Assembly (NCBI GenBank): GCA_003963005.1 | Contig: RXJW01000055.1 | Span: 1 to 64,000, forward strand | Origin: Burkholderiales bacterium | GTDB taxonomy: Bacteria; Pseudomonadota; Gammaproteobacteria; Burkholderiales; Burkholderiaceae_C | Direction: 5' to 3' | DNA: 64,000 nucleotides | Shown here: positions 2,234 to 16,145 of the stretch, in pieces | Layout: the number at the start of each line of letters is the position of its first letter | Numbering within the stretch: position 1 is the stretch's first letter | Position numbers and translations under genes: made by a program | The notes under the pieces: model-generated | Told to the model about the DNA's origin: nothing | Database searches by the model: none | The model's input: only the letters and a program-made list of their open reading frames with translations

Positions 2234-2249
2234 TGGCACACAACCTGCA
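2234..2249 (+). promoter_or_regulatory. sigma-54 type promoter for nrtABD
   Basis: TGGCACACAACCTGCA carries GG and GC separated by 10 bases and matches the consensus apart from one T of the TTGC block. The predicted start is near 2260, giving a leader of about 169 bases before nrtA. About 110 bases upstream (2123-2139) CGCACCAAAGCGG is a weak partial match to an NtrC site, and GGTGCA at 2158-2163 is a half site. The spacing suits an NtrC-activated promoter, but the operator matches are poor. Confidence 0.65.
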
Positions 2250-2259
2250 TTGATATTCC

Positions 2260-2428
2260 CGAGGCCTGCAATGGCGCTGGCCTCTCGGGCCAGCCGTCCC
2301 TGTGGAGCGGCTGGCACTTCGGGACAACGGCGTCCATCCTCTCCCAGTGCGTCTTCGCTGCCGACGTGTGGCGCGGGCGGAGCGTGGCTGCGACGCCGTT
2401 GCGCCCTGCACGCCCCCAGGAGCCCGTG
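2260..2428 (+). promoter_or_regulatory. nrtA leader with alternative hairpins and an ANTAR-type hexaloop
   Basis: The 169-base untranslated leader holds three mutually exclusive arms. GCTGGCC (2276-2282) pairs perfectly with GGCCAGC (2288-2294, loop of 5). The same middle arm, as GCCAGCC (2289-2295), pairs perfectly with GGCTGGC (2309-2315). Just downstream a 4-bp hairpin (GGAC/GTCC, 2322-2335) closes a six-base loop AACGGC. It has A at loop position 1 and G at position 4, the bases conserved in RNA hairpins bound by ANTAR proteins. GGCGC/GCGCC arms further down could form another stem, but there is no U-run, so a classical intrinsic terminator is not visible. An AGGAG ribosome-binding site precedes nrtA. 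Confidence 0.5.
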
Positions 2429-3685
2429 ATGACCGCCCGCGAGAACTCGACCGACCAGCCCACTCAGCCCGATCTGTCCCGCCGCAGCCTGCTGGCTGCC
2501 GCCGCCAGCCTGCCCGCGCTCGGCCTGACGGGTGGCGCGTGGGCGCTGGGCTCGGACAAGCCCGAGAAGGAAGAGGTCCGCATCGGCTTCATTCCGCTGA
2601 CCGATTGCGCCAGCGTCGTCATGGCCTCGGTACTGGGCTTCGACAAGAAGTACGGCATCAAGATCATCCCCACCAAGGAAGCCTCCTGGGCGGGCGTTCG
2701 CGACAAGCTCGTCAACGGCGAGCTGGACATGGCCCATGTGCTCTACGGCCTTCTCTACGGCGTGCACCTTGGTGTGGCTGGCCCCAAGAAGGACATGGCC
2801 GCGCTGATGACGCTCAACCGCAACGGGCAGGCCATCACGCTGTCCAAGAAGCTGGCCGATGCCGGCGCGGTGGACGGTGCCTCCCTGGCCAAGGCAATGG
2901 CCAAGGACAAGCGCGATTACAGCTTCGCGCAGACCTTCCCGACCGGCACGCACGCCATGTGGCTCTACTACTGGCTGGCCGCACACGGGATCAACCCGTT
3001 CAAGGACGCCAAGGTCATCACCGTGCCACCGCCGCAGATGGTGGCCAACATGCGCGTGGGCAACATGGACGGCTTCTGCGTCGGCGAGCCCTGGGGCCAC
3101 CGCGCGATCATCGACGGCATCGGCATCACCGCCACCACCACGCAGGACATCTGGCCGGAGCACCCGGAGAAGGTGCTCGGCACGACCAGCGACTTCGTCA
3201 AGAAGTACCCCAACACCGCCCGCGCCGTGATCATGGCCGTGCTGGAAGCCAGCCGCTGGATCGACGCCGGCCTCATCAACAAGAACAAGATGGCCGAGAC
3301 GATTGCCGACAAGGCCTACGTCAACACCGGCGTGGACGCCATCAACCAGCGCATCCTCGGCCGCTACCAGAACGGCCTGGGCAAGACCTGGGACGACCCG
3401 CGCCACATGAAGTTCTTCGACGACGGCGCGGTCAACTTCCCCTACCTGTCCGACGGCATGTGGTTCCTGACCCAGCACAAGCGCTGGGGCCTGCTGAAGG
3501 ACCACCCCGACTACCTCGGCACCGCCAAGGCCATCAACCAGACCCAGCTCTACGCCGAAGCCGCCGGCGCGCTCAAGATCAGCGTGCCCAAGGACCCGAT
3601 GCGCAGCTCCAAGCTGCTCGACGGCGTCGTGTGGGACGGCAAGGACCCGGCGAAGTACGCCGACAGCTTCAAGCTCAAGGGGTGA
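2429..3685 (+). CDS. nrtA: nitrate ABC transporter, substrate-binding protein
   Basis: A 418-residue periplasmic binding protein of the NrtA/SsuA family. It starts with a twin-arginine signal (SRRSLLAAAAS, about residues 16-26) and continues with VRIGFIPLTDCASVVMA, the typical first strand of nitrate/nitrite-binding NrtA proteins. It captures nitrate and hands it to NrtB/NrtD. The ATG is placed 7-8 bases after CAGGAG; longer in-frame reading upstream belongs to the leader. The signal peptide argues against a role as the cytoplasmic sensor NasS, a close relative that lacks a signal. It is first in an operon with nrtB (5 bases later) and nrtD. Confidence 0.9.
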   Translation: MTARENSTDQPTQPDLSRRSLLAAAASLPALGLTGGAWALGSDKPEKEEVRIGFIPLTDCASVVMASVLGFDKKYGIKIIPTKEASWAGVRDKLVNGELDMAHVLYGLLYGVHLGVAGPKKDMAALMTLNRNGQAITLSKKLADAGAVDGASLAKAMAKDKRDYSFAQTFPTGTHAMWLYYWLAAHGINPFKDAKVITVPPPQMVANMRVGNMDGFCVGEPWGHRAIIDGIGITATTTQDIWPEHPEKVLGTTSDFVKKYPNTARAVIMAVLEASRWIDAGLINKNKMAETIADKAYVNTGVDAINQRILGRYQNGLGKTWDDPRHMKFFDDGAVNFPYLSDGMWFLTQHKRWGLLKDHPDYLGTAKAINQTQLYAEAAGALKISVPKDPMRSSKLLDGVVWDGKDPAKYADSFKLKG

Positions 3686-3690
3686 TCGCC

Positions 3691-4608
3691 ATGGTGTCCG
3701 CCGTTTTCCATTCGCCCCGTGAGGCCGCCGCCGCGCCCACGGCCTCTGCTGCCTCCGCGACTGTCGTCCGCCCCGCCATGCCTGCCACCGAGACCTCGCC
3801 AGTGCCCGCTGCCAAGCCGGCGCGCGACCCCATCGACTGGAAAGGGATCGCGCTGCGCGTGCTGCCGCCGATCATCAGCATCGCGCTGCTCATCGGCCTG
3901 TGGGGCCTGGCGACGCAGAAAGGAGGCTCGTTTCCAACCCCGGCGGCCACCTTCGACGCCGCCGTCAAGCTCTTCTCCGACCCGTTCTACCGCAACGGTC
4001 CGAACGACCAGGGCATCGGCTGGAACATCCTGAACTCGCTCGGCCGCGTGGGCATGGGCTTCGGTCTGGCGGCGCTGGTGGGCATCCCGCTGGGCTTCAT
4101 CATCGGCCGCTTCGAATTCGCCAACCGCATGGTGTCGCCGCTGATCGCGCTGCTCAAGCCGGTGTCGCCGCTGGCCTGGCTGCCCATCGGCCTGCTGGCC
4201 TTCAAGAGCGCCAACCCGGCGGCGATCTGGACGATCTTCATCTGCTCGATCTGGCCGATGGTGGTGAACACCGCGGTCGGCGTGCAGCGCGTGCCGCAGG
4301 ACTACCTGAACGTGGCCCGCGTGCTCAAGCTCAGCGAGTGGAAGGTCATCACCCGAATCCTGCTGCCCGCGGTGCTGCCTTACGTGCTGACCGGCGTGCG
4401 CCTGTCGGTGGGCACGGCCTGGCTCGTCATCGTCGCCGCCGAGATGCTGACGGGTGGCGTGGGCATCGGCTTCTGGGTGTGGGACGAGTGGAACAACCTC
4501 AACGTCGCCCACATCCTGATCGCCATCTTCGTGATCGGCACGGTGGGTCTGCTGCTCGAATGGCTGCTGATCTCGCTCGCCAAACAGGTCACCTTCGACG
4601 GAGATTGA
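3691..4608 (+). CDS. nrtB: nitrate ABC transporter, permease
   Basis: A 305-residue inner-membrane permease of the BPD_transp_1 family. An Ala/Pro-rich cytoplasmic tail of about 50 residues precedes a first membrane helix (about 53-70). A periplasmic loop and five or six further helices follow. The EAA-loop region around LNVARVLKLSEWKVITRILLP docks the ATPase. The family usually forms homodimers in nitrate, cyanate or taurine importers, and the flanking nrtA and nrtD decide for nitrate here. It starts 5 bases after nrtA and ends 4 bases before the ATPase gene, so the three are one transcript. Confidence 0.9.
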   Translation: MVSAVFHSPREAAAAPTASAASATVVRPAMPATETSPVPAAKPARDPIDWKGIALRVLPPIISIALLIGLWGLATQKGGSFPTPAATFDAAVKLFSDPFYRNGPNDQGIGWNILNSLGRVGMGFGLAALVGIPLGFIIGRFEFANRMVSPLIALLKPVSPLAWLPIGLLAFKSANPAAIWTIFICSIWPMVVNTAVGVQRVPQDYLNVARVLKLSEWKVITRILLPAVLPYVLTGVRLSVGTAWLVIVAAEMLTGGVGIGFWVWDEWNNLNVAHILIAIFVIGTVGLLLEWLLISLAKQVTFDGD

Positions 4609-4612
4609 ACCC

Positions 4613-5410
4613 ATGAAGCCCTTCATCCAGGTCCAGGACGCCGAGATGGTGTTCACCACCCGCAAGGGTCGCTTCCATGCACTGCAGAACGTCAGCCTCG
4701 ACGTGCAGCGCGGGGAGTTCATCACGCTGATCGGTCATTCAGGGTGCGGCAAGTCGACGCTGCTGAACCTGATTGCCGGCCTGCTGCAGCCGACGTCAGG
4801 CGCTCTCATCTGCGACGGCCGCGAAATTGCCGCGCCGGGGCCTGAGCGCGCGGTCGTGTTCCAGAACCATTCGCTGCTGCCCTGGCTGAGCTGCATGGAC
4901 AACGTGCTGCTCGCCGTCGAGTCGGTGTTCGGCGGCAAGGAAGCCTCGGCCAAGCTGAAGGTGCGCGCCCGCGCGGCGCTCGAACTCGTCGGCATGAGCC
5001 ATGCGCTGCACAAGCGCCCGCACGAGATCTCCGGCGGCATGAAGCAGCGCGTGGGCATTGCGCGGGCGCTGGCCATGGAGCCCAAGGTGCTGTTGATGGA
5101 CGAGCCCTTCGGTGCGCTGGACGCGCTGACGCGGGCCAAGCTTCAGGACGAGTTGCTGAAGATCGTCGCGCGCACGCAGAGCACGGTGATCATGGTCACG
5201 CACGACGTGGACGAGGCGGTGCTGCTGTCGGATCGCATCGTCATGATGACCAACGGACCGGCGGCGACGATCGGCGAGATCCTCGACGTCGACATTCCGC
5301 GGCCGCGGGTGCGGGTGGAGTTGGCCGAGGATGCGCGGTATGTGACGGCGCGCAAGGAAGTGATCGACTTCCTGTACACGCGGCATGCGCATGTGGAGCA
5401 GGCGGCTTGA
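4613..5410 (+). CDS. nrtD: nitrate ABC transporter, ATP-binding protein
   Basis: A 265-residue ABC ATPase of the NrtD/SsuB type. Walker A is GHSGCGKST (about residues 43-51), the Q-loop lies in VVFQNHSLLPW, the signature is SGGMKQRVGIARAL, Walker B is VLLMDEPFGALD and the switch is VTHDVDEAV. It powers nitrate import through NrtB. There is no C-terminal NrtA-like regulatory extension as in cyanobacterial NrtC, so a single small ATPase homodimer is expected. It is the last gene of the nrt operon; the next gene is on the opposite strand. Confidence 0.88.
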   Translation: MKPFIQVQDAEMVFTTRKGRFHALQNVSLDVQRGEFITLIGHSGCGKSTLLNLIAGLLQPTSGALICDGREIAAPGPERAVVFQNHSLLPWLSCMDNVLLAVESVFGGKEASAKLKVRARAALELVGMSHALHKRPHEISGGMKQRVGIARALAMEPKVLLMDEPFGALDALTRAKLQDELLKIVARTQSTVIMVTHDVDEAVLLSDRIVMMTNGPAATIGEILDVDIPRPRVRVELAEDARYVTARKEVIDFLYTRHAHVEQAA

Positions 5411-5518: not shown

Positions 5519-6655
5519 TCAAAACACCACCTCCACCCTCAACCCGCCCTCCGGCCGATTGCCGAGCACCAACACCGCCCCCTGCCGCCGCACCAACTGG
5601 TGCGCGATGTACAGCCCCAGCCCCGTCCCACCGGTCTCGCGGTTGCGCGACCCCTCCACCCGCCGGAACGGCTGCCGCACCCGCTCCAGTTCCGCCTCGG
5701 GAATGCCCGGCCCATCGTCCTCCACGACCAGCCGCGTCACGCCTGCCGCCAGGTCCACCGTCACGCGTGCCTGCCCGGCATACCGCAGCGCGTTGCCGAC
5801 GAGGTTGTCCACCACGCGCCGCATCGCCACCGGGTCGGCCTGCACCACCGCGGTCGGGCCCTCGAAGCGCACGTCGGCGCCGGTCTCCGCCAGGTCGTCC
5901 ACCGCCGACTGCGCCAGTGCGGAGAGGTCGACCCGCTGCAGCGCCGCCGCCTCGGCGGGCCGGAACACCTCGATGACGCTCTCCACGAGCTGGTTCATCT
6001 CGCGCAGGTCGTCGATGCAGCGCTCGCGCACCTTGGGCTCGACCTCGCCGGTTTCCAGCCGCAGGCGCATCCGCGTGAGGGGCGTGCGCAGGTCGTGCGA
6101 GATGGCCGCCATCATCAAGCCCCGCTCCTCGAACTGGCCGCTCAGTTCAGCCGCCATGCGGTTGAAGACGGCTGCGGCTTCGCGCACCTCGCGGGTCCCG
6201 TCGTGCTCGTCCAGCCGGGGCGCCGGCTGTCCGCGTGACAGCGCCGGCGTCAGCTGCTGCGCTGCGCTGACGAGCCGCCGCACCGGGCGCGCGAGCCACC
6301 GCGACCCCCACCATGCGGCCAGCGCGATGACGATCAGGCGCACGCCATAGTCCACGACGCTGCTGCGCCAGGGCAGCTCCGGCGGCAGTGACGGGAACGT
6401 GGGCAGCGCCGGGGGTGATGCCGGTTTCATCCCGTCGGGCGACGGGCCGCGCCGGGGCGGCCCGTCCATCCCGGGACCCTGAGGGCCATGGGCATGCAGG
6501 CCTGGCAGCCCGCCGCGGGCGTCCGGGCCACCGGGCGACATCAAGGTCCGCGTCACCAGGCCCCATGCCACCAGGTGGCTCAGCGCCAGGGCCGCCCACA
6601 TCAACAGGAAAAGTCGCAGGCCGAGCCGGTCCCAGGTCCGCAAGAACTTCAGCAT
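5519..6655 (-). CDS. EnvZ-type sensor histidine kinase
   Basis: A 378-residue membrane kinase. TM1 is about residues 12-33 and a short periplasmic loop rich in Gly/Pro (about 38-90) follows. TM2 is near 105-120, then HAMP, a HisKA domain with the H-box MAAISHDLRTPLTRMRLRLE, and an HATPase domain with DNLVGNALRYA, DDGPGIPE and GTGLGLYIA motifs. It would phosphorylate the response regulator whose gene overlaps its start by 7 bases. The short sensor loop resembles EnvZ/RstB-like kinases, and the signal is unknown. It is transcribed toward nrtD from a dioxygenase-regulator-kinase operon. Confidence 0.88.
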   Translation of the reverse strand: MLKFLRTWDRLGLRLFLLMWAALALSHLVAWGLVTRTLMSPGGPDARGGLPGLHAHGPQGPGMDGPPRRGPSPDGMKPASPPALPTFPSLPPELPWRSSVVDYGVRLIVIALAAWWGSRWLARPVRRLVSAAQQLTPALSRGQPAPRLDEHDGTREVREAAAVFNRMAAELSGQFEERGLMMAAISHDLRTPLTRMRLRLETGEVEPKVRERCIDDLREMNQLVESVIEVFRPAEAAALQRVDLSALAQSAVDDLAETGADVRFEGPTAVVQADPVAMRRVVDNLVGNALRYAGQARVTVDLAAGVTRLVVEDDGPGIPEAELERVRQPFRRVEGSRNRETGGTGLGLYIAHQLVRRQGAVLVLGNRPEGGLRVEVVF

Positions 6656-7365
6656 GGGCTCACCTCGGCATCGAACAGATAGCCCTCGCCGCGGACCGTG
6701 CGGATCAGGCTGGGCTCCCGCGCGGTGTCGCCCAGCTTGGCCCGCAGTCTGGACACGGCGAGGTCGATGCTGCGGTCGTTCACCTCGACGCCGGGCGCGC
6801 GGGTCAGGTCGATGAGCTGGTCACGACTCAGCACGCGGCCCGGGCGCTGAACGAAGGCGCCGAGCAGCCGGAACTCCGCCGCCGACAACGCGATGCCGAC
6901 GTCTTCCGCGTTGATCAGCTGGCGCGTCATGCGGTCGAAGCGCCAGCGTCCGAAGCGCAGCAGCCGCGCGTCGTCGTCCACACCGCTGAACTGACCCTTG
7001 GTGGCGCGGCGCACGAGCGCCTGCAGGCGGGCCACCAGTTCGCGCGGCTCGAAGGGCTTGGCAAGGTAGTCGTCCGCACCGAGTTCAAGGCCGACGACAC
7101 GGCTCATGGTGTCGCCACGGGCGGTCAGCATCAGCACGGGCGGGGCGTCGGGCAGGGTCTGCAGCCAGCGCAGCAGCGCCAGGCCGTCCTCACCCGGCAG
7201 CATCAGGTCCAGCACGATCGCATCGAACGTCGCCAGCGGCAGCATCTGGCGCATCGCCTGGCCATCGCCCGCCGCGCTGACCTGCCAGCCGAAACCGGCC
7301 AGGTAGGCCGCCAGGCTCGTGCGGATCTCCGCATCGTCGTCGACGACCAGCGCGCGCAGCGTCAT
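6649..7365 (-). CDS. OmpR-family response regulator
   Basis: A 238-residue two-domain regulator. The receiver domain (1-120) has the acidic pair VVDDDAE, the phospho-acceptor Asp in VLDLMLPGEDG and the conserved Lys in LAKPFEP. A winged-helix DNA-binding domain (about 140-235) ends with IRTVRGEGYLFD. The partner kinase lies immediately downstream. The start ATG overlaps the stop codon of the upstream dioxygenase gene (ATGA), so translation is probably coupled. The target is unknown; the operon context suggests it may control the dioxygenase itself. Confidence 0.9.
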   Translation of the reverse strand: MTLRALVVDDDAEIRTSLAAYLAGFGWQVSAAGDGQAMRQMLPLATFDAIVLDLMLPGEDGLALLRWLQTLPDAPPVLMLTARGDTMSRVVGLELGADDYLAKPFEPRELVARLQALVRRATKGQFSGVDDDARLLRFGRWRFDRMTRQLINAEDVGIALSAAEFRLLGAFVQRPGRVLSRDQLIDLTRAPGVEVNDRSIDLAVSRLRAKLGDTAREPSLIRTVRGEGYLFDAEVSPC

Positions 7366-8243
7366 GCCGCGATGCCGACCCGCAGGGTGGCGACGTAGCC
7401 GGCACTGGCCGAGCCGGTGATGCCGACGAGTTGGGTGCTGTAACCGTCGCTGAAGATGCCGTCGGTCGACAGGCTGCTGGCGGCGTTGTTGGCCGCGCTG
7501 CTGCCGTAGCCGCTGGTGGCGTAGACGGCCGTGCTGGCCTCCGCCGGGAAACACATCTGCGAGGTGCGCAGCTTGTTGTTCCAGTTGGTGGCGGTGGCGG
7601 TGCTGCGGTAGACCTCGAAGTGGATGTGCGGCACCCGTCCGGCGTAGCAGCCCGGGTAGATCGTCTGGAACGTGACCCGGCCGTCGCTGCCGGTGGACTG
7701 CACGCCGCGCAGATAGTTCTCGCCGGTCACGCCGCTGGAGTACATCGAATAGCGGCCCTGGGCATCGCAGTGCCACAGGTAGATCGCATAGCCGCTCAGG
7801 TCGGCGCAGGACGCGTTGGTGTTCACGAGTTCGATGATGACCTGCAGCGGCACCCCGGTGGCCACGCCGCTGGCGCCAGCGATGCTGGCGCGGATGTCGC
7901 TGCGCACGATGCCGCTCAGCGCCAGGGCGTTCGCAATGCTACCGTTGGCCGTGTTCGAACCGTCGCCCGGGTAGGGGCCGGCTGTCTCCTCGGGAATGAC
8001 CGAGCAGGTGCTGGATGTCGAGCCGCTGCTGCCGGAACTGCCCGAGCTGCTGGAGCCGGAGGTCGAACTCGTGCTGGCGACGGCGTCGCCCCCACCGCCG
8101 CAACCCACGAGACCGAGGCCGGCCAGCCCCCCGGCACCGCCCACCAGCCAGCGCAGTGCGCCGCGGCGGCTGCCGGCCTGGCGCATCAGGCGTTCGAGGT
8201 CATGGGCGAGGCCGAGATCGTGATCGTGCGGGTGAGTGGCCAT
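7362..8243 (-). CDS. lipoprotein-anchored intradiol ring-cleavage dioxygenase-like protein
   Basis: A 293-residue protein. After about 30 residues it has a signal-like stretch ending GLVGCGGGG (lipobox Cys), then a Ser/Gly-rich linker, then a domain of the intradiol dioxygenase family. The likely non-haem iron ligands are all visible: a Tyr in AQGRYSMY, a Tyr in YPGCYAGR and two His in RVPHIHFEV. Classical members open catechols or protocatechuate; secreted lipoprotein versions are common in bacteria, mostly with unknown substrates. The ATG at 8243 follows AGGAG by 7 bases and is preferred over one 30 bases upstream. It is the first gene of an operon with the OmpR/EnvZ pair. Confidence 0.78.
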   Translation of the reverse strand: MATHPHDHDLGLAHDLERLMRQAGSRRGALRWLVGGAGGLAGLGLVGCGGGGDAVASTSSTSGSSSSGSSGSSGSTSSTCSVIPEETAGPYPGDGSNTANGSIANALALSGIVRSDIRASIAGASGVATGVPLQVIIELVNTNASCADLSGYAIYLWHCDAQGRYSMYSSGVTGENYLRGVQSTGSDGRVTFQTIYPGCYAGRVPHIHFEVYRSTATATNWNNKLRTSQMCFPAEASTAVYATSGYGSSAANNAASSLSTDGIFSDGYSTQLVGITGSASAGYVATLRVGIAA

Positions 8244-8326
8244 GGCAGGCTCCTGGGTTGGGATGGCTGCCATTGCATCGCCGTCATGTATCGGGGCCTT
8301 GCCCAGTTTGTGTCAGGCCTGACACG

Positions 8327-9580
8327 TCAGCCCAGGATGAGCTGCAGCGAGCCCTGCAGCGCGCGGATCAGGTCCTCCAGCGCCTGCAGCAGCCGCTCGC
8401 TGCCCTGGTGCATGCGCTGCACCGCCTCGCCCGGCTCCACGCGCAAGCCGCGCAGCAGAACGAGCCAGGCCTCGTCCACGGCGGCAAACGCCGGCTGCAG
8501 CGCCGGGCTGGCCAGCGGTGTCGCGCGCACGGCGTCATAGGCCTGGATGAATTCGTCCAGCCCGGCAGCCAGGCCGGTTGCGTCGTGGCCGGGCACGACC
8601 TGGGCGAGCAGCCCCTCCTTGGCCAGACGCTGGCTCAACAGCCGCAGCCGCGTCACCTGGGCCAGCAGCCCCACGGGGCGCTGGCCGGCACGCTCGCACA
8701 GCCGGGCGACCAGCAGCTCGCTGCTCTCCAGCAGCCGCTGGGCCGCCTCGTCGCTGCGCTGGAGATCCGGCTGGCGGCTGGCCAGGGCAGGCTGAAGCTG
8801 CCGCCACGCGCTGGCCACCGCGGCCTGCTCGGCGGACAGGTCCTCCCGGAGCAGCTCGGCCAGGCGTTCGAGGTTGGCAGCCACACGCGCCATCGACGCG
8901 TCAAGCAGCGACTGCGCCTCGCGCCGCTCCGGCAGCGTGAGCCGCGGCCACTGCCGCAGGGTCTGCAGCTTGACCATGCGCTGGCTCAGCATCCGCTGCG
9001 CCCCGGCGCGCTCGAGCGCCTCGGCCAGTTCGGCCGTGCGCACCACACCACGGGCCACGTCGGGCAGCTTGGACTGCGTCTGCATGGCCGTGCTGCGCAG
9101 CAGCGCGAATGCCGCCGCTTCGTCGATGCCGCGGGCCTGCATCAGCAGGCCCTTGGCCCGCTCGGTCCACTTGCGCTCGTCGAGCTGCGCACGCACGAGC
9201 TGCTCCTGCGCCGTGAACCGGACCGCCAGGCCGCCCGTCCACGCCAACACCGCCGCCTTCAGGGGCAGCGCCGTGTCGGCCGGCAGCCACTGCACGATGC
9301 CACGGCCGATCAGCGCCTCGCGCACGCCGGCCGACGGTGGCGGCGAGAGCAGCAGCACCGGGCAGGCGAACGGTCGATCCGACCCGGCCAGGGCGGCGAG
9401 CGAGGCAGCGTCCGGACAGCTCAGCAGCCCGATCGCCGAGGGGTCGACCGGCGTGGTCAGGTCCGGCACGGCCTGCAGGCGCCAGCCCTCCCGCTGGAGA
9501 TCGTCGGCATCCAGGGGCAGGTCGGGGCTGCACAGCAGCAGGCGGTCCGTCGCGGTGCGCGTGATGGCGGAGTCAGGCAT
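8327..9580 (-). CDS. ANTAR regulator fused to a PilJ/NarX-type sensor domain
   Basis: A 417-residue soluble protein with three parts. A degenerate receiver-like domain (about 10-125) comes first. An ANTAR RNA-binding domain (about 131-186, with ERKWTERAKGLLMQARG and EAAAFALLRSTAM) follows. A long helical region (about 190-417) carries two copies of the motif of PilJ N-terminal/NarX sensor domains: QRMLSQRMVKL (195-205) and RLLSQRLAKEG (313-323). In NarX the matching arginine region binds nitrate. There is no signal peptide or membrane helix, so it should sense a cytoplasmic ligand. It is divergent from nirB across a shared control region. The N-terminus of an alternative reading begins 45 codons earlier; the chosen ATG fits the domain boundary. 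Confidence 0.75.
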   Translation of the reverse strand: MPDSAITRTATDRLLLCSPDLPLDADDLQREGWRLQAVPDLTTPVDPSAIGLLSCPDAASLAALAGSDRPFACPVLLLSPPPSAGVREALIGRGIVQWLPADTALPLKAAVLAWTGGLAVRFTAQEQLVRAQLDERKWTERAKGLLMQARGIDEAAAFALLRSTAMQTQSKLPDVARGVVRTAELAEALERAGAQRMLSQRMVKLQTLRQWPRLTLPERREAQSLLDASMARVAANLERLAELLREDLSAEQAAVASAWRQLQPALASRQPDLQRSDEAAQRLLESSELLVARLCERAGQRPVGLLAQVTRLRLLSQRLAKEGLLAQVVPGHDATGLAAGLDEFIQAYDAVRATPLASPALQPAFAAVDEAWLVLLRGLRVEPGEAVQRMHQGSERLLQALEDLIRALQGSLQLILG

Positions 9581-9620
9581 GGGCGCCAAGTATCCGGGCA
9601 AGCCGGGCCGCCCGACAGCA

Positions 9621-9637
9621 TGCGCCGAGCTGGTGCG
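9621..9637 (+). promoter_or_regulatory. NtrC-like binding site upstream of nirB
   Basis: TGCGCCGAGCTGGTGCG fits the NtrC consensus TGCACC-N5-GGTGCA with 5 of 6 bases in each half. It lies about 105 bases upstream of the -24 box of the nirB sigma-54 promoter, a normal distance for an enhancer site. A further half site, TGCACC, follows at 9651-9656. The region is shared with the divergent ANTAR-PilJ gene. Confidence 0.5.
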
Positions 9638-9740
9638 GTTTTGGGGCGAATGCACCCGCACCGGGCTCGACAACGCTTCGGCGTGGGGCGTCGCATGCGG
9701 TTTTTCACGCTGCAACCGGGCTGGAGGCCAGCGTCATCGC

Positions 9741-9755
9741 TGGCACATCGCTTGC
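9741..9755 (+). promoter_or_regulatory. sigma-54 type promoter for nirB
   Basis: TGGCACATCGCTTGC matches TGGCAC-N5-TTGC without a mismatch, with GG and GC 10 bases apart. The predicted start near 9767 leaves a leader of only about 17 bases before the nirB ATG, with an AGGAG site. No attenuator can therefore fit here, unlike at nrtA. Confidence 0.7.
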
Positions 9756-9783
9756 GATGCAAACAACGGACCAGGAGCCGCGC

Positions 9784-12234
9784 ATGAAGAAGCTCAAACT
9801 CGTGATGGTGGGAAACGGCATGGCCGGCGTGCGCACGCTGGAGGAACTGCTGAAGATCGCGCCCGACCTGTACGAGATCACGGTGTTCGGCGCCGAGCCC
9901 CATCCCAACTACAACCGCATCCTGCTGTCGCCCGTGCTCGCGGGGGAGCAGACGCTGGACGAGATCGTCCTGAACCCGCTCGCCTGGTACGAGGAACACG
10001 GCATCACCCTGCACCTGGGCAAGCCGGTGACCGAGATCGACCGCGTGCGCCGCCGTGTCGTCGCGGCCGACGGCAGCACGGCCGACTACGACCGCCTGCT
10101 GATCGCCACCGGCTCCAACCCCTTCGTGCTGCCGGTGCCCGGCAAGGACCTCGACGGCGTCATCGCCTACCGCGACATGGCTGACACGCAAGCCATGATC
10201 GACGCCGCCGCCCGGTACCGGCACGCCGTCGTCATCGGCGGCGGCCTGCTCGGCCTGGAGGCGGCCAACGGTCTGATGCGCCGCGGCATGCAGGTGACCG
10301 TCGTGCACCTGACGGGCACGCTGATGGAACGCCAGCTGGACACCGTGGCGGGCGAACTGCTGCGCCAGTCGCTCGCCGAACGCGGCCTGAGCTTCAGGCT
10401 CGGCGCCCAGACCCAGGCCCTGCTCGGCAACGAGGCGGGCCGCGTGCGCGCCGTCCAGCTCAAGGAGGCGGGCGGCGAGGTCGTGGAGGTGCCGGCGGAT
10501 CTCGTCGTCATGGCGGCCGGCATCCGTCCGAACACGGCGCTGGCGGAGCGCGCGGGCCTGCTGTGCCAACGCGGCATCGTCGTGACCGACACCCTGCAGA
10601 CGGTGACGGACCCGCGCATCTACTCGGTCGGAGAATGCGCCGCCCACCGCGGCATCGCCTACGGTCTGGTGGCGCCGCTGTTCGAGCAGGGCAAGGTCTG
10701 CGCCACGCACCTGGCGCAGTTCGGCATCGGCCGCTACCAGGGCTCGGCCGTCAGCACCAAGCTCAAGGTGACGGGCATCGACCTCTTCAGCGCCGGCAAC
10801 TTCAGCGGCGGCCCGGGCACGGAGGAGATCGTCATGAGCGACCCCTTCGCCGGTGTCTACAAGAAGCTCGTCATCCAGGATGACCGGCTCGTCGGCGCCT
10901 GCCTGTACGGCGACACGGTGGACGGCAGCTGGTACTTCAAGCTGCTGCGCGAGGGCCGCAAGATCGCCGACATCCGCGACAAGCTGATGTTCGGCGAAGC
11001 CGGCGCCAACATCGGTGACGTCGGCCACCAGGGCATCAACCGGGCCGCCGCGATGGCGGACACCGACGAGGTCTGCGGCTGCAATGGCGTGGCCAAGGGC
11101 ACCATCTGCAAGGCCATCCGCGACAAGGGCCTGTTCACGCTCGACGAGGTGCGCAAGCACACCAAGGCCAGCGCCTCCTGCGGCAGCTGCACCGGGTTGG
11201 TCGAGCAGCTGCTGATGGCGACGGCCGGCGGCGACTACTCAGCCGCGCCGCAGAAAAAGGCCCTGTGCGCCTGCACCGACGCGAGTCACCAGGAGGCCCG
11301 CGACGCCATCCGCGCCGGCCACCTGCTGACGCTGCCCGAGGTGTTCAAGGCGCTGGCATGGCGCACGCCCGACGGCTGCGCCACCTGCCGACCGGCGATC
11401 AACTACTACCTGATCAGCACCTGGCCCAAGGAGGCCGTGGACGACCCGCAGAGCCGCTTCATCAACGAGCGCAGCCATGCCAACATCCAGAAGGACGGCC
11501 GCTACTCGGTCATTCCGCGCATGTGGGGCGGCGAGACGACCGCGGACGAGCTCCGCCGCATCGCCGACGCGGTGGACAAGTACCAGATCCCGACCGTCAA
11601 GGTCACCGGCGGCCAGCGCATCGACCTGCTGGGCGTGAAGAAGGAAGACCTGCCCGCCGTCTGGCGCGACATTGGCATGCCCTCCGGCCACGCCTACGCC
11701 AAGGCGCTGCGCACCGTGAAGACCTGCGTGGGCAGCGAATGGTGCCGCTTCGGCACGCAGGACAGCACCCAGATGGGCAAGGACCTGGAGCGGGCGCTGT
11801 GGCGCATGTATGCGCCGCACAAGGTCAAGATCGCCGTGTCCGGTTGCCCGCGCAACTGTGCCGAGGCGGGCATCAAGGACGTGGGTGTCATCGGCGTGGA
11901 CTCCGGCTGGGAGATCTACGTCGCCGGCAACGGCGGCATCAAGACCGAGGTGGCGCAGTTCCTGTGCAAGCTCAAGACCCCCGAGGAGGTGCTGGAGATG
12001 AGCGGGGCGTTCCTGCAGCTCTACCGGCTGGAAGGCTGGTACCTGGAACGAACCGTGCATTACGTGAGCCGAGTCGGACTCGATCACGTGAAGCGCAAGC
12101 TGCTCGACGACGTGGAAGGACGCAAGGCGCTGTGGGCGCAATTGCAGTTCAGCCTCGACGGGGAGCCGGATCCGTGGTTCGACTTCGAGCCGGCGCAGGT
12201 GGATCTGCGCCAGTTCGGCAAGCTCAACGTCTGA
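9784..12234 (+). CDS. nirB: assimilatory nitrite reductase, large subunit
   Basis: An 816-residue cytoplasmic NAD(P)H-nitrite reductase. Domains in order are: an FAD/NAD(P)-binding pyridine nucleotide-disulphide reductase part (1-400); two BFD-like [2Fe-2S] segments (VCGCNGVAKGTIC with CGSCTG, then CACTDA with CATCRPA); a nitrite/sulphite reductase ferredoxin half-domain; and the sirohaem/4Fe-4S domain with TCVGSEWCRFG and SGCPRNCAEAG supplying the four cluster cysteines. It reduces nitrite to ammonium with six electrons, together with NirD. The start is set by CAGGAG 7-8 bases upstream. The next gene follows after 23 bases. Confidence 0.95.
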   Translation: MKKLKLVMVGNGMAGVRTLEELLKIAPDLYEITVFGAEPHPNYNRILLSPVLAGEQTLDEIVLNPLAWYEEHGITLHLGKPVTEIDRVRRRVVAADGSTADYDRLLIATGSNPFVLPVPGKDLDGVIAYRDMADTQAMIDAAARYRHAVVIGGGLLGLEAANGLMRRGMQVTVVHLTGTLMERQLDTVAGELLRQSLAERGLSFRLGAQTQALLGNEAGRVRAVQLKEAGGEVVEVPADLVVMAAGIRPNTALAERAGLLCQRGIVVTDTLQTVTDPRIYSVGECAAHRGIAYGLVAPLFEQGKVCATHLAQFGIGRYQGSAVSTKLKVTGIDLFSAGNFSGGPGTEEIVMSDPFAGVYKKLVIQDDRLVGACLYGDTVDGSWYFKLLREGRKIADIRDKLMFGEAGANIGDVGHQGINRAAAMADTDEVCGCNGVAKGTICKAIRDKGLFTLDEVRKHTKASASCGSCTGLVEQLLMATAGGDYSAAPQKKALCACTDASHQEARDAIRAGHLLTLPEVFKALAWRTPDGCATCRPAINYYLISTWPKEAVDDPQSRFINERSHANIQKDGRYSVIPRMWGGETTADELRRIADAVDKYQIPTVKVTGGQRIDLLGVKKEDLPAVWRDIGMPSGHAYAKALRTVKTCVGSEWCRFGTQDSTQMGKDLERALWRMYAPHKVKIAVSGCPRNCAEAGIKDVGVIGVDSGWEIYVAGNGGIKTEVAQFLCKLKTPEEVLEMSGAFLQLYRLEGWYLERTVHYVSRVGLDHVKRKLLDDVEGRKALWAQLQFSLDGEPDPWFDFEPAQVDLRQFGKLNV

Positions 12235-12257
12235 AACCACTTGTCCGGAGCGCCCGT

Positions 12258-12986
12258 ATGCAGTCCTCGCGTCGCCAGTTGCTGATGTCCGCCACCCTCG
12301 CCGGCATGTCGGCTCTGCCCCTCGTCGGGCAGTGCCAGGCGCCGGCCTCGTGCGCGACGCCCAGCCTTGGTGCACTGACGCAGCGCATGGGCAAGGCCTG
12401 GCTGTGCACGGCCGACCCTCAGCTGGCCCCGGTTGCACAGCAGGTGCTCAAGGACAGCCAGCTGGTGTTCCAGCGGCAACTCGTGCAGCTTCATGCCGGC
12501 ACCACCAGCCCGGAACAGGCCGGCAGCCTGCGCGCGCTGGCCCGCCGCTATGAGGACTACCAGGCCCTGTTTGCGGTCGCGCCGGCGGCTGACACCCACC
12601 GTGCGCTGCTCACCACCGCCAACGAGATGCTGACCCTCGCTCAGCTCGCCAGCGGTGACCGCACCGCACTGCCCTGGCAGGCCCGCCTGGCGGCACGCCA
12701 GCGGCTGCTGTCACAGCGCATCGCCCTGCTCGGCCTCGCGCAGGTGGACACCGTGACGACCCGTCGCGAGCGCCAGAGCGCCATCTACGAATTCGAGGCC
12801 GGCCTGCAGACGCTGCGCGAGGCCGGCAATGCCACCCTGCGCCCCCACCTGGCCGCAGCCGACGCCGCCTGGACCCCGCTGCGCGATGCGGCAGGTGCCG
12901 GCCAGCCGGCCCCGGTCTTCACGACCAGCGAGCGGCTGCTCGTCGTGATGGACGCGGTCACCGAACACTGTTCCCGCATCACCTGA
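12258..12986 (+). CDS. exported PilJ/NarX-type sensor-domain protein in the nir-nas operon
   Basis: A 242-residue protein with an N-terminal export signal containing a twin arginine (SSRRQLLMSATLAGM, cleavage around residue 25-30). One helical domain follows, with two copies of the PilJ/NarX sensor motif: LTQRMGKAW (40-48) and RQRLLSQRIALLG (147-159). No kinase, methyl-accepting or DNA-binding part is present. Its position between nirB and nirD implies a role in nitrate or nitrite handling, perhaps as a periplasmic nitrate/nitrite binder. The same domain type is fused to ANTAR in the divergent gene. The function is inferred from context only. Confidence 0.65.
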   Translation: MQSSRRQLLMSATLAGMSALPLVGQCQAPASCATPSLGALTQRMGKAWLCTADPQLAPVAQQVLKDSQLVFQRQLVQLHAGTTSPEQAGSLRALARRYEDYQALFAVAPAADTHRALLTTANEMLTLAQLASGDRTALPWQARLAARQRLLSQRIALLGLAQVDTVTTRRERQSAIYEFEAGLQTLREAGNATLRPHLAAADAAWTPLRDAAGAGQPAPVFTTSERLLVVMDAVTEHCSRIT

Positions 12987-12996
12987 AGGTTGCTCG

Positions 12997-13377
12997 ATGG
13001 ACTGGACCCGCATCTGCGCCCTGCAAGACATTCCCGTGCTCGGCTCGCGCCGGGTCCAGCGCCCTCAGGGCCTCGATGTGGCCGTGTTCCGCAATGCCGC
13101 CGACGAGGTCTTCGCCCTGCTCGACCGCTGCCCGCACAAGGGCGGGCCCCTGAGCCAGGGCATCGTCTTCGGCACCAGCGTCGCCTGCCCGCTGCACAAC
13201 TGGACGATCCGCCTCACCGACGGCTGCGCCCGCGCGCCCGATGAAGGCTGCACGCCGGCCTTCCAGGTGAAGGTCGAGGCCGGCGACGTGTTCCTGTGCC
13301 GGACCGAACTCGACACCCTCGCTCTCGACCTGCCCGCGCCGGTGGCCGGCCCCCGCCTGAGCATGGCCAACGCCTGA
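12997..13377 (+). CDS. nirD: assimilatory nitrite reductase, small subunit
   Basis: A 126-residue Rieske-fold protein. It begins WTRICALQDIPVLGSRRV and keeps both ligand pairs of a Rieske [2Fe-2S] cluster, CPHKGGP and CPLHNW, 17 residues apart. Many NirD proteins have lost these residues, so this one may carry a cluster. It pairs with NirB to form the cytoplasmic nitrite reductase. It starts 10 bases after the PilJ-type gene and is followed by nasA after 26 bases, in one operon. Confidence 0.92.
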   Translation: MDWTRICALQDIPVLGSRRVQRPQGLDVAVFRNAADEVFALLDRCPHKGGPLSQGIVFGTSVACPLHNWTIRLTDGCARAPDEGCTPAFQVKVEAGDVFLCRTELDTLALDLPAPVAGPRLSMANA

Positions 13378-13403: not shown

Positions 13404-16145
13404 ATGCGCGAAACCAGGTCCACCTGCCCCTACTGTGGCGTCGGCTGCGGGGTCGTCATCGAGCACGATGGCGCCCAGATCACGGGCGTGCGCGGCGACC
13501 CCGACCACCCCGCCAACTTCGGCCGCCTGTGCACCAAGGGCACGATCCTGCACCTCACGGCCACGCCGGTCGTGCTGCAACGCCAGCGGCTGCGCGAGCC
13601 GATGCGGCGCGCCACGCGGGGGGCAGCGCCCGAGGTGATCGACTGGGCCACGGCCAACGGCGAGATCGCCGAACGGCTGCTCGCCCTGCGCGCGGCGCAC
13701 GGCCCGGGCTCGATCGGCGTCTACATCTCCGGACAGCTGCTGACCGAGGACTACCACGCGTTCAACAAGCTGGCCCGCGCGGTGCTCGGCACGCCCCACA
13801 TCGACTCCAACTCCCGGCTGTGCATGAGCTCCGCCGTGGTGGGCTACAAGCAGGCCCTCGGGGCGGACGCGCCGCCCTGCAGCTACGAGGACATCGAACT
13901 CGCCGACTGCGTGCTGGTGAGCGGCGCCAACCCGGCCTGGGCCCACCCCATCCTGTTCCGCCGGCTGGAAGCCGCGCGGGCCGCGCGCCCGGGGCACAAG
14001 CTAATCGTCATCGACCCGCGCCGCACCGAGACCGCCGAACTGGCCGACCTGCACCTGCAGCTCCGGGCCGGCACCGACGTGGCGCTCAGCCATGCGTTGC
14101 TGCACGCCATCATCTGGCAGGGCTGGACGGTGCCGGACTTCATCGCCGCGCACACCGACGGCTTCGACGCGCTCAAGACCCTGGTGCGCGACTGGACGCC
14201 GGCCCGCGCCGCACAGGTCTGCGGCGTGCCCGAGGCGGCGATCTGGCAGGCGGCCGAGTGGTTCGCCACCGCCCCCGCCAGCCTGAGCCTGTACTGCCAG
14301 GGCCTCAACCAGAGCAGCAGCGGCACGGCCAAGAACACCGCACTGATCAACCTGCACCTGGCCACCGGCCAGATCGGCCGACCCGGCGCCGGCCCGTTCT
14401 CGCTGACGGGGCAACCCAACGCCATGGGCGGGCGCGAAAGCGGCGGCATGGCCACGCTGCTGCCCGGCCACCGCGACCCGTCCCGAGCCGAGGACTGGGC
14501 GGACATCGCCCGGCTGTGGGGCGTGCCGGACCTGCCGGGGCAGCGCGGCCACACCGCGGTCGAGATGTTCGAGGCCGCGGCCCGCGGCGAGATCAAGGCG
14601 CTGTGGATCGCCTGCACCAACCCCGCACAGTCCCTGCCCGACCAGGCACTGGTGCGCCAGGCACTGGAACGCTGCGAGCTCGTCATCCTGCAGGAGGCCT
14701 TCGCCCACACCGCCACCGCCCGCTACGCCGACTACCTGCTGCCCGCAGCCACCTGGGGCGAGAAGGAAGGCACGGTCACCAACAGCGAACGTCGCATCAG
14801 CCGCGTGCGCGCGGCCGTGCCGCCGGCCGGCCAGGCGCGCCCCGACTGGCGCATCGTGCGCGACATCGCCACGCTGATCGACGCGGGCCTCGGCCGCCCG
14901 GCCCGCCTCGTCGCCGCGGGACCGGAAGACCTCTGGTGCGAACACCGCGAGGCCACCCGCGGCCGCGACCTGGACATCACCGGCCTGTCCTGGGCGCTGC
15001 TCGACGCGCAGGGCCCGCAGCAGTGGCCCTACGTCCAGGGTCCGACGCCACGCCTGTACACCGACCGGCGCTTCGCCACGCCCGACGGTCGCGCCCGCTT
15101 CATCGCGCGGCCCTTCCGCCCGCCGGCCGAAGCGCCGAGCCCGCTGCGCCCCTTTGCACTGACCACCAGCCGCCTGCGCGACCAGTGGCACGGCATGAGC
15201 CGCAGCGGCACCGTGCCAGGGCTGTTCGCGCACGAGGGCCGGCCGGCCGTGCGCGTTCATCCGGCCGATGCAGCCCGACGGCGGCTGGCCGACGGTGAAC
15301 TGGTGCGGGTGCGCTCGGCCCGTGGCGAGGTCGTGCTGCCGCTGCGCCTGGACGACACGCTGCCGCCCGCCGGTGCCGATCTGCCGATGCACTGGGGCGA
15401 CGAGTTCATCGGCGCTCAACTCGGCATCAATGCGATCACGCCGGGGGCGTTCTGCCCCGACGCCAAGCAGCCCGAACTGAAGTTCAGCGCCGTGGCCATC
15501 GAGCCCGCCGACCTGCCCTGGCGCCTGAGCGCCTGCGCCTGGGTGCCCGCCGACCAGGGCCCCGCGCTGCGCGAGCGGCTGCGCGCGCTGATGCCGCACT
15601 TCGGCTACGCGCACTGCCTGCCCGAGCCCACGCGCGGCGAGTGGTCAGGCTGGACCTTCGAGGCAGCCTGCCAGCACGCGCCCGCCGCGACCCTGGTCGA
15701 CGCCCTGGCCGACGCCGTCGGGCTGCGCGGCCCCGACGTGCTGCGCTACGCCGACGCGCAGCGCGACCGCCTGCGCCTGCTGCGCCTGGCGGACGCCGAC
15801 CTCCAGGCCGCGCCGCTGCAAGCCCTGCTGCGGGTGGGCCTGCATGACGAAGGTGCCTGGCTGACCGACCTCTGGCGCGCCCGCACGGCGGCCTCGACCG
15901 TCGGCCGCTGGCTGCTCTCGCCCGGCGCCCCGCCGACCAACACGCCGGCCGTGAGCCCGCAGGTCTGCAACTGCTTCGATGTCCGCGAAGACGTGATCCG
16001 CCTGACGCTCGCCCGCTGCAGCGGCAGCCCGGGCGAGCGGCTGGCCCAGCTGCAGGCCGAGCAGCGCTGCGGCACGCAGTGCGGCTCCTGCCTGCCGGCC
16101 CTGCGCCGCCTGGTGGCCACCACACCCGAGGAGGTGCCCGCATGA
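13404..16145 (+). CDS. nasA: assimilatory nitrate reductase, molybdopterin catalytic subunit
   Basis: A 913-residue cytoplasmic enzyme that reduces nitrate to nitrite. The N-terminus holds the [4Fe-4S] motif CPYCGVGC (residues 8-15). A molybdopterin oxidoreductase domain and a molydopterin-dinucleotide-binding domain follow to about residue 700. The C-terminal region (about 850-910) is a BFD-like [2Fe-2S] domain with VCNCFDVRED and CGTQCGSC, an electron-entry module found in NasA of enterics and many proteobacteria. No FAD subunit (NasC/NasB type) is encoded next to it, so the electron donor is unknown. Its stop codon overlaps the cobA start (ATGA). Confidence 0.95.
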   Translation: MRETRSTCPYCGVGCGVVIEHDGAQITGVRGDPDHPANFGRLCTKGTILHLTATPVVLQRQRLREPMRRATRGAAPEVIDWATANGEIAERLLALRAAHGPGSIGVYISGQLLTEDYHAFNKLARAVLGTPHIDSNSRLCMSSAVVGYKQALGADAPPCSYEDIELADCVLVSGANPAWAHPILFRRLEAARAARPGHKLIVIDPRRTETAELADLHLQLRAGTDVALSHALLHAIIWQGWTVPDFIAAHTDGFDALKTLVRDWTPARAAQVCGVPEAAIWQAAEWFATAPASLSLYCQGLNQSSSGTAKNTALINLHLATGQIGRPGAGPFSLTGQPNAMGGRESGGMATLLPGHRDPSRAEDWADIARLWGVPDLPGQRGHTAVEMFEAAARGEIKALWIACTNPAQSLPDQALVRQALERCELVILQEAFAHTATARYADYLLPAATWGEKEGTVTNSERRISRVRAAVPPAGQARPDWRIVRDIATLIDAGLGRPARLVAAGPEDLWCEHREATRGRDLDITGLSWALLDAQGPQQWPYVQGPTPRLYTDRRFATPDGRARFIARPFRPPAEAPSPLRPFALTTSRLRDQWHGMSRSGTVPGLFAHEGRPAVRVHPADAARRRLADGELVRVRSARGEVVLPLRLDDTLPPAGADLPMHWGDEFIGAQLGINAITPGAFCPDAKQPELKFSAVAIEPADLPWRLSACAWVPADQGPALRERLRALMPHFGYAHCLPEPTRGEWSGWTFEAACQHAPAATLVDALADAVGLRGPDVLRYADAQRDRLRLLRLADADLQAAPLQALLRVGLHDEGAWLTDLWRARTAASTVGRWLLSPGAPPTNTPAVSPQVCNCFDVREDVIRLTLARCSGSPGERLAQLQAEQRCGTQCGSCLPALRRLVATTPEEVPA

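Follow-up and report, generated by a model that had tools for sequence, protein, structure and literature searches.

A putative one-protein nitrate switch with a tandem PilJ/NarX-type sensor in a Burkholderiales nitrate assimilation locus

How is nitrate sensed in an assimilation locus that carries two PilJ/NarX-type proteins, one of them fused to an ANTAR domain? The question is raised by the first 64,000 nucleotides of contig RXJW01000055.1 (assembly GCA_003963005.1, Burkholderiales bacterium), hereafter the window, where a 417-amino-acid protein combining both domain types, hereafter the fusion, is encoded divergently from nirB, a gene for an exported tandem-PilJ protein, nirD and a nitrate reductase gene. 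An original prediction, made from this stretch alone, took the fusion for a direct sensor of cytoplasmic nitrate or nitrite and the exported protein for its periplasmic companion. We propose, with a probability of about 0.6, that the fusion acts as a soluble antiterminator of one-component type, responding to nitrate (or nitrite) through the mechanism set out below, and that the exported protein is a separate component.

The fusion and its sensor module

The fusion begins with a receiver-like region, in which no phosphate-acceptor aspartate is evident by eye, followed by a coiled coil, an ANTAR domain (residues 175–225; Pfam E-value 2.2e-16, 59.8 bits for a cut-off of 27.3) and two stretches assigned to PilJ (PF13675; E-value 1.3e-9, 38.5 bits for a cut-off of 26.6). 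Its start is most likely the ATG at position 9580, common to close relatives; the frame extends to 462 amino acids if read from a TTG further upstream. Within the 417 residues nothing resembles a membrane helix (best 19-residue mean hydropathy 1.3). ANTAR and PilJ-like domains are thus joined in one soluble protein, as originally predicted. A profile built from 13 fusions matched the solved ANTAR regulators 1s8n (E-value 6e-18), which we take to be Rv1626, and EutV (6wsh, 2e-17), as well as NasR (4akk, 6.5e-11) in its ANTAR part only, while repeat 1 matched McpN (6gcv, 3.3e-7) and repeat 2 PilJ (7zjr, 4.7e-6). Nor is the sensor a NIT domain: Pfam gave no NIT match (PF08376) at E<10 for the fusion or the exported protein, and alignment of the module with 16 NIT domains by hhalign returned a probability of 0.2%, hence no NIT homology, either for the fusion or for the exported proteins.

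The C-terminus of the fusion and the exported module are homologous end to end (hhalign probability 100%, 228 columns, E-value 4.4e-39). McpN is described as binding one nitrate on the dimer axis, gripped by R61 of both chains (PMC6381276), and R50 as the contact arginine of NarQ (PMC7247690); the N-box is given as [IVL][ND]xAGxQRML[ST]Q (PMC6381276). The counterparts of these arginines and of the next SQR arginine in the fusion are R241, R246, R358 and R363, all four kept in the window. Across an alignment with some near-duplicate rows, the first three occur in 53 of 53 fusions and R363 in 98%. By analogy with McpN, a one-chain tandem could provide both arginines of the site. Direct sensing of cytoplasmic nitrate or nitrite would fit these arginines and the leader elements of relatives described below. 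In a module tree made with a quick method, where several long branches including that of the window exported protein were flagged and one of the 53 fusion rows was lost to the motif filter, the fusions form one side of a branch (52/52, SH-aLRT 100). Recent capture of an exported module by an ANTAR gene was considered and is unsupported, the fusion and exported Burkholderiales modules lying in separate tree groups.

The fusion is matched at E≤1e-10 in 59 of 250 genomes of the family, 47 of these matches spanning ANTAR and PilJ; at the level of the order, 10 of 150 genomes match and two matches are spanning, those of the window genome itself and G049. Named relatives at about 70% identity belong to Roseateles and Pelomonas, and the sensor module of the window fusion is 85–86% identical to those of loci L049–L053. 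One of these, L051, comes from a Methylotenera metagenome-assembled genome (MAG); its contig is probably misbinned, since both its fusion and its exported protein hardly differ from their counterparts in Roseateles puraquae L053 (tree paths of about 0.015 and 0.025). A nirB match lies in the same stretch in 45 of the 52 fetched fusion loci, window excluded. With the window included, the divergent neighbour of the fusion is a NarK-type transporter gene or nirB in 39 of 53, the other 14 having no recognisable narK or nirB start.

Leader elements and a proposed mechanism

In 31 of the 39 fusion-divergent regions, a sigma54-like site (loosely defined) is followed 18–26 nt on by a hexaloop hairpin with loop A/G-N-N-G-N-N, at least 6 pairs and one mismatch allowed, as against 1.9 ± 1.2 regions (maximum 6) in 300 dinucleotide shuffles. 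Requiring at least 5 pairs gave 33 regions versus 3.7 shuffled, and at least 7 pairs 26 versus 0.9. The eight regions without the element include those of the window, L051 and L053. An RNA model, R2, trained on the 14 divergent regions with both hairpins (second loop 44–46 nt on), then recovered nine fusion loci from outside its training set (E<0.1), with all matches in the divergent region. Since the rows of the underlying alignments (A3, A4) had been picked for having hairpins, pair counts on them are no proof, and we therefore rely on the matches outside the training set and on the shuffle control. Rfam at gathering score gave no family match in seven fusion loci. No R2 match was found under E 0.5 in the window genome, nor any convincing R2-type leader elsewhere in it.

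The features of the window that bear on this point are the following.

1441–2094, + strand: NasT-like gene, a second ANTAR gene (Pfam ANTAR E-value 2.8e-17; whole-genome ANTAR search)
2234–2248, + strand: sigma54-like element of the nrtA leader, TGGCACACAACCTGC
2261–2284, + strand: leader hairpin P1, hexaloop AATGGC, stem with one mismatch (R1 match 2261–2336)
2322–2335, + strand: leader hairpin P2, hexaloop AACGGC
2392–2400, + strand: anti-P2 segment, pairing with the loop and 3' stem of P2 and excluding P2; no T-run after it
2429–3685, + strand: nrtA, nitrate ABC transporter binding protein, Tat-like signal (by eye)
3691–4608, + strand: nrtB, permease (PF00528)
4613–5410, + strand: nrtC, ATPase (PF00005)
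8327–9580, − strand: fusion gene, 417 amino acids; receiver-like region, coiled coil, ANTAR and two PilJ/NarX-type repeats
9741–9755, + strand: sigma54-like −24/−12 element of nirB, TGGCACATCGCTTGC; no hexaloop hairpin found
9784–12234, + strand: nirB, large subunit of assimilatory nitrite reductase (NCBIfam TIGR02374, E-value 7.6e-271)
12258–12986, + strand: exported tandem-PilJ protein, 242 amino acids, first N-box lost (translation, family alignment, McpN profile match)
12997–13377, + strand: nirD, small subunit (NCBIfam TIGR02378, above cut-off)
13404–16145, + strand: candidate nasC/nasA-type nitrate reductase, 913-amino-acid open frame kept behind nirD in relatives

The last frame, named from its sequence and place rather than from a family scan, is presumably an assimilatory nitrate reductase. 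Between nrtABC and the fusion gene, a block on the − strand (5519–8273) encodes what we take, from the sequences, to be a histidine kinase paired with a response regulator, and an exported protein that resembles intradiol dioxygenases. The originally described nitrate locus with its two PilJ proteins stands; that description omitted the NasT-like gene and nrtA's ANTAR-type leader.

This leader was identified with a second model, R1, built from 28 leaders, of which 26 are of nrtA type and two of fusion type (L113, L122), a mixture that blurs R1 towards R2. The window leader, outside the training set, is the best R1 match of the 6.24-Mb genome (36.8 bits, E-value 1.4e-5; next 0.08), and another match at 22512–22560 of the window (E-value 0.013) was taken as chance, as it falls in a long open frame. 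The anti-P2 pairing is intact and favoured, with a folding energy of −41.8 kcal/mol when left free versus −31.1 with P2 enforced. In a number of relatives, the anti-P2 segment carries a T-rich tail after P2, an arrangement that resembles described ANTAR antitermination (PMC3369931, PMC8934654). The window also matches the Rfam narK RNA (RF03032) at 2235–2300, between the NasT-like gene and nrtA, but weakly and below the gathering score (21.1 versus 43.2 bits, E-value 3.6 for 20 kb), a score reached in none of the 250 family genomes. Weak matches (E≤1) occur in 207 of these and are mostly uninformative; only the 30 best places were used. Almost all of the 30 fall between a NasT-like gene and nrtA, both genes being present in the same stretch in 28, and most show a sigma54-like element and two AANGGC hexaloops, the second often in GGACAANGGCGTCC. 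RF03032 (window 2235–2300; L129–L158) may thus describe an ANTAR target, and the dual-hexaloop nrtA leader appears to be the only convincing one in the window genome.

From these elements we infer the ligand, the RNA binding, the direction of control and the target in the window genome. The two PilJ/NarX repeats would build a pseudo-symmetric nitrate site within one chain, each half contributing one arginine, the equivalent of the site that NarX, NarQ and McpN build from two chains. Binding of cytoplasmic nitrate (or nitrite) would free or dimerise the ANTAR domain, which would then grip the paired hexaloop hairpins of the nascent leader RNA and prevent an alternative, expression-blocking hairpin. 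In most relatives the fusion would act on the leader that a sigma54-like promoter precedes in the divergent narK or nirB operon. In the window genome, because the divergent leader is absent and the nrtA leader is the sole visible target, the likeliest output would be control of nitrate uptake through the latter, perhaps shared with the NasT-like protein.

Several observations weigh against this proposal. On the side of the sensor, repeat 2 of the window fusion misses several fixed N-box places, its AG among them (LAQVTRLRLLSQ), repeat 1 misses one (E for N/D), and a strict N-box occurs twice in none of the 53 fusions, once in 13 and not at all in 40; moreover, the PilJ receptor of Pseudomonas aeruginosa, itself a tandem PilJ protein, is reported not to bind nitrate (PMC6381276). 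On the side of the RNA, 30 of the 53 fusion loci have no R2 match at E<0.1, and the Roseateles narK leaders show a single clear hairpin (loop AATGGT), the second being unclear. In the window, nirB has no ANTAR leader: no P1 hairpin was found. The folding energy of the nirB leader as a whole is not unusual (z −0.52). The usual sigma54 spacing would put the transcript start less than 20 nt ahead of the nirB ATG. Whole-leader folding of the nrtA leader is not unusual either (z −0.22), and an intrinsic terminator was rejected there, no T-run following the anti-P2 hairpin. Because of this lack and of a ribosome-site-like CAGGAGCC that begins 17 nt past the anti-P2 segment, Rho or translation control of this leader is possible. 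Finally, among the 30 places that match the narK RNA best, 25 are in genomes without a listed fusion, and the neighbouring NasT-like gene may encode the sole reader of the nrtA leader.

The last point leads to the alternative that survives best, a division of labour in which the NasT-like protein alone would read the nrtA leader (AANGGC) and the fusion only leaders of narK/nirB type (RNCGNN), having in the window lost its target or acting on an element unseen by our models. The association of the best narK-RNA places with the NasT-like gene and nrtA, mostly in the absence of a listed fusion, speaks for it, as does the lack of an R2 match in the window genome. So does a comparison with 20 nirB loci from genomes that have the exported gene and no listed fusion (taken from the 20 top-scoring genomes out of 54): R2-type leaders are present at 23 of the 53 fusion loci (14 of which had served for training) and upstream of nirB in none of the 20 (Fisher p 1.4e-4; 0.02 without the training loci), where the best R2 match (E-value 0.091, 18.8 bits) is antisense inside nirB. 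In these fusion-less loci, an R1-type leader precedes nirB at E<0.001 in seven, nirB lies at most 200 nt behind nrtC in eight, and neither arrangement is seen in five; one more R1 match below 0.001 (L188) falls inside nirB. Yet the fusion of the window lineage is as well kept as its identity to L049–L053 indicates, unlike a protein deprived of its target, the Roseateles narK loop AATGGT is close to the nrtA type, and R1 and R2 both give some match to L104, L108, L113 and L122. We consider such a division unlikely, though worth keeping in view. A wider reading, which we advance tentatively as a possibility short of an even chance, is that Burkholderiales possess two orthogonal ANTAR circuits, one of NasT-like proteins and AANGGC loops and one of PilJ-fused receptors and RNCGNN loops, in which narK/nirB leaders would switch code with the presence of the fusion, the loops would insulate the circuits from each other and the exported module would bind periplasmic nitrate or nitrite.

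The exported protein between nirB and nirD

The exported gene starts 23 nt past nirB and ends 10 nt ahead of nirD. The N-terminus of its product is signal-like by eye and those of its relatives look alike; the 19-residue hydropathy of 1.4 at residue 8 is not decisive alone. A general Pfam scan returned no match at E<10, NCBIfam gave no name either, and the PilJ match is sub-threshold (22.1 bits for a cut-off of 26.6), so that the libraries used here left the window copy of this gene, which is conserved in many nirB operons, without a name. A profile of the exported family (28 sequences) matches the nitrate-binding PilJ domain of McpN (6gcv, 2.9e-9) and NarQ (5.6e-4). Place and homology thus agree with the predicted PilJ-only exported protein; its first motif, ALTQRM, is not an intact N-box. 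Strict N-boxes number two in 26, one in 10 and none in three of the 39 exported proteins from Burkholderiales loci, and the last three, those of the window, L051 and L053, have a long branch (1.06) in common. Because it has lost the first N-box and is one of the three without any, the window protein appears to be among the family members least likely to bind nitrate in the manner of McpN. In relatives the exported protein is probably a periplasmic nitrate/nitrite binder, the simplest reading of the family being that of a periplasmic nitrogen-oxyanion binder, and in the window lineage its function has probably changed or been lost.

The role of periplasmic companion to the fusion was not upheld. 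The exported protein was listed in 69 of the 250 family genomes, 15 of 47 with the fusion and 54 of 203 without it (Fisher p 0.47), which is co-occurrence at chance level and leads us to reject it as a general partner. These presence lists were made by hand, counting as fusion a match spanning ANTAR and PilJ (including G264, cut by a contig end) and as stand-alone exported protein a near full-length match outside the fusion at E<1e-20; the searches scored up to six candidates per genome in one case and up to ten in the other, the matches of the latter being listed down to about E 4e-8, so that absences may be overstated. Behind nirB and ahead of a nitrate reductase gene is where the exported gene stands in each of the 20 loci fetched from genomes without a listed fusion, nirD being detected in 18. 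The exported protein is therefore a separate component of the nirB operon.

The loss of N-boxes also bears on the possibility that nitrate sensing has disappeared in the window lineage, both proteins being degenerate relatives of PilJ that bind a different ligand or play a structural part. The missing first N-box and long branch of the exported protein, together with the absent AG in repeat 2 of the fusion, would be expected in that case; the four contact-type arginines are all kept in the fusion, and its module is closely similar to those of L049–L053, which makes such a loss rather improbable in our view.

The gene is also found in other settings. In L190 (3944–5596) it occurs twice in tandem between nirB and nirD, and L091 contains fusion and exported genes with nasC behind the latter, its 20-kb stretch giving no match to nirB. 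Outside Burkholderiales, a Sulfurimicrobium MAG (L085, 5113–9518) has a relative whose operon also contains genes for cytochrome d1, NirDL-type proteins and cytochrome c, and a Campylobacterales MAG (L077, 9232–12942) shows a row of PilJ, tandem PilJ and NIT-like proteins, the last below cut-off. Likewise outside Burkholderiales, a relative lies behind a two-component pair in L072 and others in further surroundings in L063, L069, L078 and L086. For the genomes of L061, L067, L071 and L073, absence of the fusion was judged within the fetched stretches.

Comparison with known nitrate sensors

The closest functional parallel is NasR of Klebsiella, like the fusion a soluble single protein in which a two-fold helical sensor of nitrate type is joined to ANTAR, in a nitrate assimilation locus with hexaloop leaders. 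In NasR, NIT comes first and ANTAR last, whereas the fusion has a receiver-like region, ANTAR and then a PilJ/NarX-type sensor, and leaders of the fusion group follow sigma54-like sites. By analogy the fusion would work like NasR, yet it lacks two of its defining features, the NIT sensor and the sensor-first order. With NarX, NarQ and McpN it has in common the PilJ family and the contact arginines; it differs from them in being cytoplasmic, in having two repeats per chain, in an output that would be RNA binding rather than kinase or chemoreceptor activity, and in N-boxes that depart in the window from the strict form.

We found no description of such a fusion in the open-licence literature searched by full text, as judged mostly from titles and the beginnings of abstracts. 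N-box PilJ domains are known from transcriptional regulators, ANTAR not being mentioned in the excerpted text (PMC6381276), so that the architecture may already sit in databases. It would be a one-protein nitrate switch of apparently undescribed build. If the proposal is right, it would stand next to NIT-ANTAR and NasS-NasT as another way of controlling antitermination by nitrate, one in which the periplasmic sensor family of NarX type serves as a single-chain receptor in the cytoplasm. With two leader classes, the loop specificity of ANTAR becomes testable within one genome group, and these classes also point to a reader for the Rfam narK RNA.

As in NasS-NasT systems, nitrate assimilation genes of the window would be under ANTAR control, one ANTAR protein being NasT-like; unlike in these systems, no NasS was found, and the sensor is in the same chain as the second ANTAR protein. 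The window nrtA is not NasS because of its Tat-like signal, seen by eye, and the two NrtA-like proteins found in the genome at E≤0.001 have signal-like N-termini, also by eye, and lie beside transporter genes. No NIT match was obtained in the whole genome either. That the fusion replaces NasS, relaying the nitrate signal to the NasT-like protein through a mixed ANTAR dimer formed by the coiled coil, is very unlikely: the missing NasS, the coiled-coil/ANTAR stretch common to both proteins (39% identity over 71 residues) and the action of ANTAR proteins as dimers (PMC3369931) would allow it, but the NasT-like gene and its leader do without a listed fusion at 25 of the 30 best places, so that this gene does not need the fusion. 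A search for an assimilatory narK elsewhere in the genome gave three distant matches, all on contig C158 (27–36% identity). The assembly consists of 236 contigs with an estimated contamination of 5.76%, and the absences of NasS and narK are therefore provisional. On C158 (16274–23028), a gene for a PilJ-domain protein is followed by NarK-like transporter genes, an arrangement that resembles a narX-narK cluster for nitrate respiration.

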